Under the pieces are notes generated by a model that did not search any database, was not told where the DNA came from, and saw only the letters and a list, made by a program, of their open reading frames with translations. Both the position numbers and the translations under genes were made by a program. From an uncultured Gammaproteobacteria bacterium (GTDB lineage: Bacteria; Pseudomonadota; Gammaproteobacteria; Pseudomonadales; Pseudohongiellaceae), in NCBI GenBank assembly GCA_913060975.1, contig CAJXVC010000002.1, positions 1-64,000 on the forward strand: a stretch of DNA of 64,000 nucleotides. The letters run 5' to 3'. Of this stretch, positions 5,706 to 35,207 are shown piece after piece. Numbering within the stretch: position 1 is the first letter of the stretch; the number at the start of each line of letters is the position of its first letter.

Positions 5706-6389
5706 TTATTGGCCGGCGCTTTGGAAGCTTTTCGCCGATTCCAGCCAAGACTCCAGCTCTTCCCAATTTAGCGGGAAAGTGTGGCGGGCGCCCGGGACTA
5801 CAGCGGCGTCTACCAGAGCACCAGCGCGCTCCAGATGTTCGATCATGTCCGTGATTTCCTTATTCCAGCGAAAATCATCCTTCTCACCAATTCTCAAATA
5901 GACAGGCAGACCGTGCAAGGCACCCAGGTCCACGTCATTGTGGATTCGCCCCGGGGCTGCAATCACGCCCATATAATGATCAGGGTTGCGCGCCGCGATT
6001 GCCAAAGCCGCACTACCGCCACTGGAAATGCCTACCAGCAATGTCTTGGCAGGTTGAATGCGATGTGTCTCGCGAACATGACTGATAATATCCGGGAACA
6101 GGGCGGCGTTCTCGATGAAGTACTTGCGGCCTTCGGGCGAGATAGGGATAGCGATAGCCCAGCCACGCGAGACCATTTCCTTGCCCATCCAGAACTGGGT
6201 GCGTGCCATGAACTCATTGTTGGAACCACCGGCGAGCAGGACCGCCAGTGGCGTCTCGTTATTAAAACCGTCAGGCTGGAAGTACAACACTTTGATCATT
6301 TCGCCATCGATAAGCGTGATAGTCTCCTCGGCGGCTTGCGCTGAGTAGCTGATCAATAGACAGAGTAATAAGGCGAGAAGATTTTTCAT
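5706..6389 (-). CDS. Secreted alpha/beta hydrolase
   Basis: Signal peptide; GISSGG nucleophile elbow; C-terminal GARHTFP histidine region. Confidence 0.8.
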   Translation of the reverse strand: MKNLLALLLCLLISYSAQAAEETITLIDGEMIKVLYFQPDGFNNETPLAVLLAGGSNNEFMARTQFWMGKEMVSRGWAIAIPISPEGRKYFIENAALFPDIISHVRETHRIQPAKTLLVGISSGGSAALAIAARNPDHYMGVIAAPGRIHNDVDLGALHGLPVYLRIGEKDDFRWNKEITDMIEHLERAGALVDAAVVPGARHTFPLNWEELESWLESAKSFQSAGQ

Positions 6390-6575
6390 GAACTGGATTG
6401 TGTGCCAAGCCCCAAGTGAATGTCGCGCAGTATAGCAATGATCGACATTTTGGCGCAGAACCTTGAGATGAATGCGCGCTTAAAGCGGTCAATCGCCCGT
6501 CGCTACAGTTGGGCACTATTTTGCAGCCACGGTCAGCTGTAACTTTTTTATCACCCCTGCGTCTTTTAAAAGCAA

Positions 6576-33841: not shown

Positions 33842-34399
33842 ATGACAACAACAATAAACTATCTGCAAGATCCTATTCCTCAGGACCAAGAAGCTGATGC
33901 GTTGCAAAACCTGTGTCAGTACCTGGTCGCTAAAGGCAAATACAAGAATCTGGACGCCGCGCTCAGTGATGCTGACAAGCGTGTGACGTTTCTGGAGGAT
34001 GCCGATGTCTACTCGGACGACCCCCAAATGGCGACCGCCTCCAAAGACCTGAAACTTACCCATGCGCTGATAGCTGGCCACAAATTACACGATATTCTGT
34101 CAGAAAATGACGGCTACCTGCCACAGCTGGAAGAGGCTAAAGTAGCCAGGAAGGGCAGTTCGCGCTCGATCACGGATGTGTTTGGCTCGATTGCGCTGGA
34201 TATCAAAGTCGGCATGAGTAGAGAGCAAATCATCGCCAAGCTGGTAGATGATGGGCTGGCAACTGAAAATGCTGAGGAAGCCTACCAGTTTGTTATGCGG
34301 CAACAGGCGCAAAAGAAGCAGGCCCGCCTTACCTCCGTGATCGCGATTCTTGTGCTGGGTTTGGTTTTATTCGGCCTGAGTTTTTTCTGGTTCCGGTAG
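33842..34399 (+). CDS. Hypothetical protein with C-terminal TM anchor
   Basis: 185 aa, soluble N-terminal region, terminal hydrophobic helix. Confidence 0.6.
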   Translation: MTTTINYLQDPIPQDQEADALQNLCQYLVAKGKYKNLDAALSDADKRVTFLEDADVYSDDPQMATASKDLKLTHALIAGHKLHDILSENDGYLPQLEEAKVARKGSSRSITDVFGSIALDIKVGMSREQIIAKLVDDGLATENAEEAYQFVMRQQAQKKQARLTSVIAILVLGLVLFGLSFFWFR

Positions 34400-34579
34400 T
34401 GGCAACCAGTAGCATCTGAATAATCGACAATACAATCTGGGTTTTTTGCCGGCTTCGCGTTGCCACCGCGCTGCAAGCCTGTGGTTAGAAACAGCAAATT
34501 TGCCGAAAAGTTGCGAACTGTAAAATCTGTTCTACTCTGAAATCACGCAATTCATTAATTCAACCAAAGGAGTGAAATT

Positions 34580-34798
34580 ATGCGTGAGTTAACATTGGAA
34601 GAGCAGGATAAGGTTGTTGGTGGGTCATTAATGGCTGATGCTGCGGCTGAAGGCGCGGCGGTAGGCACTATGGTTGGCGCTATAGCAAGAAACACTGTTC
34701 GAGGGGCCGTCACCGGAGGTGCATGGGGCGCAGTAGGTGGAGCAGCATTTGGTGCTGTTTATTCAGTCTCAAGCTACATCTACGATCGAGCGTCATGA
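34580..34798 (+). CDS. Candidate double-glycine-leader bacteriocin/microcin precursor (72 aa)
   Basis: Leader MRELTLEEQDKVVGG resembles class II/microcin V leaders; mature part rich in Gly/Ala with GxxxG motifs; strong AAGGAG upstream. Confidence 0.7.
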   Translation: MRELTLEEQDKVVGGSLMADAAAEGAAVGTMVGAIARNTVRGAVTGGAWGAVGGAAFGAVYSVSSYIYDRAS

Positions 34799-35115
34799 GT
34801 GTGATGATTAGTAGTCGCGCAGCCAATGTCTTTACTAAAGTACTTTTTGCTGTGTCGGTGTTTATGTCGCTGGAAGGCACGTTTGTTTCACTGAATTTTA
34901 TTCAAGCTGCAGTGAATATTCCGGCAGCATTTTGCTTCTATTTCCTGATTCGCAATCCAGTGCTTTTGGTAGCTAAAGATTTTGATGAATTTGGAGAATT
35001 GTTCGACGATGCCGTGGACAAAAAGTTCATTTGGGGTACTGCACCAATCTGCCCGGCAATGCTACTAATCTCGATCAGCTATATTGCCTTCATGAAATAC
35101 GGCTTGCCATTCTAG
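34795..35115 (+). CDS. Small membrane protein, candidate immunity protein
   Basis: 106 aa, hydrophobic segments; ATGA overlap with the GG-leader peptide gene. Confidence 0.55.
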   Translation: MSVMISSRAANVFTKVLFAVSVFMSLEGTFVSLNFIQAAVNIPAAFCFYFLIRNPVLLVAKDFDEFGELFDDAVDKKFIWGTAPICPAMLLISISYIAFMKYGLPF

Positions 35116-35207
35116 GCAACCTGAAGCTGGGGTTTGCTGGCAGGAAATCCTGTTAGCAAGTCCCGGCTGCTTTTCTGATTGATATTCTTCTAGAGTGATG
35201 CGAGTGA

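Follow-up and report, generated by a model that had tools for sequence, protein, structure and literature searches.

The window, by which we mean the whole 64,000-nucleotide stretch analyzed, contains a small precursor peptide gene and, overlapping its 3' end, a gene for a hydrophobic partner protein, with the following features:

34567..34572 (+): Shine-Dalgarno sequence AAGGAG of the peptide gene, seen in the sequence 7 nt 5' of the ATG
34580..34798 (+): precursor peptide gene, 72 aa, with a double-glycine leader and a 57-aa Gly/Ala-rich core
34580..34624 (+): leader MRELTLEEQDKVVGG, defined by alignments, with C39 cleavage predicted after GG
34793..34795 (+): TCA codon of the C-terminal Ser72, a residue shared by almost every GG peptide of the genus and a candidate for modification
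34795..35115 (+): partner gene, 106 aa, with three predicted membrane helices; likely cognate immunity protein
35125..35168 (+): terminator-like hairpin of 20 pairs with a T-rich tail, which closes the two-gene unit

Both open reading frames (34580-34798 and 34795-35115) are exactly as an earlier note on this DNA had described them, and the AAGGAG ribosome-binding site that it named is present; GGAG-type sites also occur upstream of the peptide genes of most homologues. The 72-aa precursor reads MRELTLEEQDKVVGG-SLMADAAAEGAAVGTMVGAIARNTVRGAVTGGAWGAVGGAAFGAVYSVSSYIYDRAS (leader-core). Its TGA stop occupies positions 34796-34798 and the partner ATG begins at 34795, inside the stop region, giving the ATGA overlap that had been proposed. 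The letters of the suggested promoter (TTGCGA-N16-TACTCT) are likewise in place, but they agree with only 7/12 sigma-70 consensus positions and were not called by a promoter scan, which leaves this element of the note unsupported. The 20-pair hairpin just 3' of the partner gene suggests a self-contained two-gene unit; the hairpin scan yielded one hit where shuffled sequences predicted 1.0, and the argument is one of position and stem length. Given the gene overlap and the hairpin, the two genes are likely to be transcribed and translated together. A leader scan returned no further GG-type leader candidate within the window. Directly 5' of the unit lies a gene for a 185-aa protein (33842-34399, +) with a single C-terminal hydrophobic segment and no Pfam match above cut-off.

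The precursor family and its membrane partner

Of 61 same-genus genomes, 15-16 contain homologous peptide-partner pairs in the same order, and these have a conserved leader, as expected from the double-glycine leader assigned in the earlier note, which had staked that assignment in part on homologues sharing it. In alignments of the family, M1, R2, E3, L4, T5 and E8 of the leader and several core glycines are invariant. A scan of a genome collection for the pair, using a narrow partner alignment as query, yielded 14 loci, all in marine-type gammaproteobacterial MAGs. Genomes from 37 further families of the order showed no clear pair match, and a single-protein scan of genome contigs with the peptide as query returned no relatives. 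Viral contigs likewise held no relatives, and thus no phage link was seen. Among close relatives, the pN/pS ratios of the peptide (0.14-0.40) and of the partner (0.13-0.29) indicate purifying selection on both. Two precursor homologues have lost the GG motif (VRGRG in L025 of G057 and VSRAG in L037 of G012), both in genomes that keep a C39 exporter, and in G017 the whole peptide-partner pair is duplicated in tandem (L074 / L097).

The peptide scored below every Pfam and NCBIfam family cut-off. Sub-threshold matches were obtained to MccV (PF17508, 12.1 of 27 bits), Bacteriocin_IIc (PF10439, 15.5 of 27.1) and microcin E492 (NF051486, 15.1 of 50), and to the glycine-zipper family PF13441 (E=0.0042, 17.2 bits, below the 28.9 cut-off), with the core glycines conserved; a PF10439 search of the peptide's own genome gave sub-threshold matches only. 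The predicted structure is a helical hairpin (H6-37, H40-71; mean pLDDT 81), for which a fold search found nothing significant.

The small hydrophobic protein encoded directly 3' is conserved and predicted to be a three-helix membrane protein. Its model places helices at residues 2-31, 35-53 and 85-102 (mean pLDDT 85) and has no significant PDB fold match; the protein falls in no Pfam or NCBIfam family, even at sub-threshold level. Conservation is evident at RNP, EF, G, P and Y positions, and the loop follows RNPxxLxAKxxxEFGExxDxxxDKKxxWG. With 106 aa, adjacency to the peptide gene and predicted transmembrane helices, the partner falls within the class II microcin definition of an immunity gene product (adjacent, 51-216 aa, transmembrane helices). 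These properties of position, size and predicted topology resemble those of CdzI, an immunity protein with three transmembrane segments in the inner membrane (PMC5380434), and of MceB, located in the inner membrane, which makes the partner a likely cognate immunity protein as far as sequence comparison can tell. One homologous locus, G035:C15 (L098 8001-8084), carries an in-frame stop after 28 partner residues next to an intact peptide gene, reflecting decay, an assembly error or a shorter start. A broken partner beside an intact peptide is awkward for strict immunity unless the assembly is at fault.

Related leaders are widespread in the genus. A degenerate leader pattern gave approximately 70 matches in 84 same-genus genomes and 0 for a reversed control pattern, placing the GG-peptide observation beyond chance; such peptides were present in 44/84 genomes, as counted with a DNA pattern restricted to leaders that begin with MREL. 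The genome studied here encodes a second GG peptide (G000:C11:139848, MRELTIEEMDIVVGG..., ending in SES). This peptide (L072 5849-6106, +) has its own unrelated hydrophobic partner (6136-6537, +), and the pair has relatives in G053, G054 and G057, where the partner has three hydrophobic stretches. A distinct GG-peptide type with the core NPLTVTFGTP (L144, L156-L159, L177, L190, L191) lacks a membrane partner, for the most part does not end in Ser, and is possibly a different modified peptide.

GG peptides can also serve in signaling, biofilm formation or autolysis, roles described for some cyanobacteria and gonococci (PMC4997328, PMC11798529), in which case the membrane partner here would be a receptor or modulator. 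That several GG families of the genus have no membrane partner would suit such a function. We nevertheless regard it as unlikely, given that almost all members of the window family are followed directly 3' by a membrane partner of their own, that the peptide is modeled as a hydrophobic glycine-zipper hairpin, and that unrelated core families are accompanied by unrelated membrane partners, which is a toxin-immunity pattern.

A C39 exporter encoded in trans

The earlier note had found no C39-peptidase exporter in the window, proposed export in trans and suggested a genome-wide search for an exporter and its membrane fusion protein (MFP). The genome contains a single C39 match (G000:C5:86470), on another contig than the pair. 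It belongs to a 703-aa peptidase-ABC exporter (G000:C5:86437-88548) whose closest solved relative over the whole protein is PCAT1. Alignment with the LahT and PCAT1 peptidases covers ECGxAxLAM, HWxxxHFVVL and DPAxG of the peptidase domain, whose ECG, HWxxxHFVVL and DPA motifs hold the catalytic Cys, His and Asp, a triad required for the class II microcin PCAT (PMC9746304). An HlyD adaptor (MFP) is encoded just 5' of the exporter (G000:C5:85163-86440), and the genome encodes TolC-type proteins, with a match to the TolC model over its cut-off. All five components listed for class II microcins (PMC9746304) are accordingly present, namely peptide, partner, C39 exporter, HlyD and TolC, and the location of exporter and adaptor elsewhere in the same genome fits export in trans. 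The absence of a C39 exporter and of homologues sharing the GG leader, which the earlier note had named among its grounds for refutation, was not borne out. A 190-262 aa protein is encoded 3' of the C39 exporter in 18/18 loci of this type (for example, L002 18506-19294 (+) and L122 9652-10332); it has no Pfam match and, by eye, looks like a REP-associated transposase-type protein.

The distribution of the peptides follows that of the exporter. Across 61 genus genomes, and with phylogeny and MAG incompleteness ignored in both comparisons, the window family tracks the exporter (13/16 vs 15/45, Fisher p=0.0013), and the presence of any MREL-GG peptide follows it still more closely (26/34 vs 2/27, p=6e-8). 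The pair also occurs without a C39 match in G003, G023 and G058, as does another GG peptide in G014, these being partial MAGs or relics.

Such genomes, together with the distance between pair and exporter and the homologues with broken leaders or partners, could be taken to mean that the window unit is itself a relic, an orphan GG peptide and partner that are no longer exported and are drifting. Purifying selection on both genes among relatives, an intact exporter, adaptor and TolC in the same genome, and a good ribosome-binding site and terminator-like hairpin at the locus all speak against drift, and we consider a relic very unlikely.

Instead, the unit probably encodes a peptide of class II microcin type that is exported in trans, together with its immunity protein, with the antibacterial activity of the predicted secreted peptide and the protective role of the partner both inferred. 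The MREL...GG leader would be recognized and removed by the genome's single C39 exporter, as motif conservation on both sides suggests, and the core would leave the cell through the PCAT, the HlyD adaptor and a TolC-type outer-membrane channel. By analogy with class II microcins and with the Cdz system (PMC10233263, PMC5380434), the 57-aa core, once released, would probably enter the inner membrane of close competitors as a glycine-zipper helical hairpin and kill them in this way, while the three-helix partner would stay in the inner membrane of the producer and protect it.

Acyl genes in the exporter operon and the terminal serine

Upstream of the adaptor and exporter, and in one operon with them (G000:C5:83905-88548), the genome encodes an acyl carrier protein (ACP; PF00550, with a DSL motif) and an LpxL-superfamily acyltransferase (PF03279, 25.3 bits over a 22.3 cut-off). 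The acyltransferase adjoins the MFP and PCAT in 17/17 scorable loci of this exporter type, within a conserved chromosomal neighborhood, and an ACP was found in 15 of these 17 (none in L129 and L133); the G046 exporter is of another type, without acyltransferase, and the G040 locus is cut by a contig end. Among genus genomes, the acyltransferase is present in 27/28 with a strong C39 match and 0/33 without, a phyletic pattern on which we rejected a housekeeping LPS enzyme and which speaks for an enzyme dedicated to the peptide system. A search of plasmid records gave no acyltransferase relative, and neither a lanthionine synthetase nor a class IIb microcin gene was recognized in the exporter operon.

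A sister genus within the family shows a similar arrangement, with acyltransferase, ACP, adaptor and PCAT adjacent in 5/5 genomes that have the acyltransferase. In both of the loci that were annotated (2 of the five), a fatty-acyl-AMP ligase lies 5' of the ACP. At each of the sister-genus loci L236 and L237, two GG peptide genes are immediate neighbors of the exporter gene, and Ser is the last residue of all four peptides (4/4); a leader scan of the other three loci showed no GG peptides beside the exporter. Judged by gene content, this operon plausibly represents a pathway in which a fatty acid is activated, loaded onto ACP, transferred and exported.

The GG peptides with unrelated cores have only two things in common, the leader and a C-terminal Ser. 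The latter terminates 49/61 distinct complete peptides of the genus, spanning most of 13 core clusters, against a baseline of 22/335 long ORFs; the main exception is the NPLTVTFGTP-core type without a membrane partner. Ser also ends 13/14 peptides from related genera within the family, compared with 0/8 in genomes of other families of the order that have C39 exporters (Fisher 5e-6, not phylogeny-corrected and with a small control set of 8). These control genomes contain no clear acyltransferase relative, with one weak partial match in G190 (E=2.4e-8). Within the genus, GG peptides encoded next to exporters without the acyltransferase have R (L201) and D (L121) as their last residue; next to exporters of two other families (L195, L196), the last residues are K, Y and P. 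The association with the exporter is imperfect, in that terminal-Ser peptides also occur without a true C39 match in G466 (a third genus of the family), in G193 and in a few same-genus MAGs, and the association with the operon rests on related genomes.

Since Ser conservation tracks the exporter systems of the acyltransferase type, the terminal Ser is a candidate acceptor. The ACP and acyltransferase in the exporter operon, taken with a terminal Ser common to the exported peptides, lead us to propose, tentatively and at somewhat less than even likelihood, that these microcins are fatty-acylated, perhaps at that residue; acylation would take place before or during export. Other acceptor sites were also weighed. 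The first core residue differs between peptides (S, G, T, F, V, L, I, A and others), making a common N-terminal acceptor unlikely, and the absence of Lys from 50/61 cores does the same for lysine acylation.

The same genes can be read differently. The peptide may carry no modification and be, together with its immunity protein, a simple class IIa-type microcin or a glycine-zipper bacteriocin of the Cdz kind, the acyltransferase and ACP altering membrane lipid or LPS for export or self-protection. Cdz proteins are small, of glycine-zipper type and, as far as known, unmodified, with a three-transmembrane immunity protein (PMC5380434); the operon enzyme belongs to the lipid A acyltransferase superfamily, and a gene that by eye resembles a kdo transferase lies near it in the syntenic block. 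The canonical motif of this superfamily is His-x4-acidic. The operon enzyme has no acidic residue five positions after the His and carries HxGD/E instead, and its substrate could be a lipid instead of a peptide. The absence of the acyltransferase from 33/33 genus genomes without a strong C39 match does not fit housekeeping LPS machinery, however, and the sister-genus operon joins a fatty-acyl-AMP ligase and ACP with the exporter and GG peptides. An unmodified peptide would also leave the terminal Ser unexplained. On this evidence, we hold an unmodified bacteriocin to be possible but rather doubtful.

Class IIb microcins are modified at a C-terminal Ser (PMC10233263), and the strong conservation of the residue here raises the question of whether it carries a siderophore and not a fatty acid. 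Class IIb membership was rejected because the Ser/Gly-rich C-terminal motif is absent and only the terminal Ser remains (SSYIYDRAS). The exporter operon, moreover, encodes an ACP and an acyltransferase, joined in the sister genus by an acyl-AMP ligase, and no class IIb gene and no gene for siderophore glycosylation or attachment was recognized in it; a siderophore microcin appears highly improbable.

The proposal of fatty acylation extends beyond the window. We consider it conceivable, though with a little less than an even chance, that at least two genera of a single marine gammaproteobacterial family share a group of lipidated microcins, in which unrelated cores would be acylated at the terminal Ser by an acyl-ACP-dependent LpxL-superfamily enzyme encoded in the C39 operon. 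As part of the same reading, and put forward just as cautiously, the ACP would in one genus be charged by the fatty-acyl-AMP ligase. An open-access literature search found no precedent for acylated microcins or for acyl-AMP-ligase RiPPs.

Relation to known systems and implications

The system resembles the class II microcins MccV, MccL, MccE492 and MccH47 in its GG leader, small hydrophobic core and adjacent small inner-membrane immunity-like protein, and in the use of a C39 PCAT, MFP and TolC, an export machinery that may serve several microcins. It differs from them in that the exporter is unlinked from the peptide, which itself has no family match over cut-off. What is new with respect to known class II microcins is the exporter operon with ACP and acyltransferase, combined with a near-universal terminal Ser without the class IIb tail.

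Counterparts of the Caulobacter Cdz system (CdzC/CdzD/CdzI) can also be recognized, namely a small candidate toxin resembling a glycine zipper (at a sub-threshold model score), an immunity-like protein with three predicted transmembrane segments, and predicted type I export. Each unit here has one peptide, in contrast to the 84-86 aa Cdz pair, and candidate maturation genes are present; a strict Cdz system was rejected because of the single peptide and the unlinked exporter, which lies outside the cluster on another contig. Selidamides and nostolysamides, which are GNAT-lipidated RiPPs, are similar in that a leader-bearing ribosomal peptide receives (here, as proposed) a fatty acyl group from an encoded acyltransferase. 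The enzyme in the present operon is of the LpxL/PatA superfamily (PF03279), with its own ACP and no GNAT, and the window core, like most others in the genus, lacks the Lys that, with Orn, is the acceptor in the selidamide type, so that class was rejected as well. Mcc17978 of Acinetobacter baumannii is another non-enterobacterial microcin, with a GA leader, a SunT-like exporter and HlyD; unlike here, its immunity protein is cupin-like and its genes share one locus, and no acyltransferase or ACP is named for it.

Few class II microcins have been confirmed by experiment, and a handful of species account for them. The genus studied here, whose members are marine and mostly uncultured, contributes dozens of microcin candidates, many with their own candidate immunity gene, and the combination of leader, terminal Ser and acyltransferase-PCAT operon provides a genomic rule for finding more such systems. 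If the exporter-linked acyl genes act on peptides, they would provide a way of making fatty-acylated ribosomal peptides that differs from the GNAT route known so far; lipidated microcins, if real, would add to the known peptide modifications and to the known acceptors of the LpxL superfamily.
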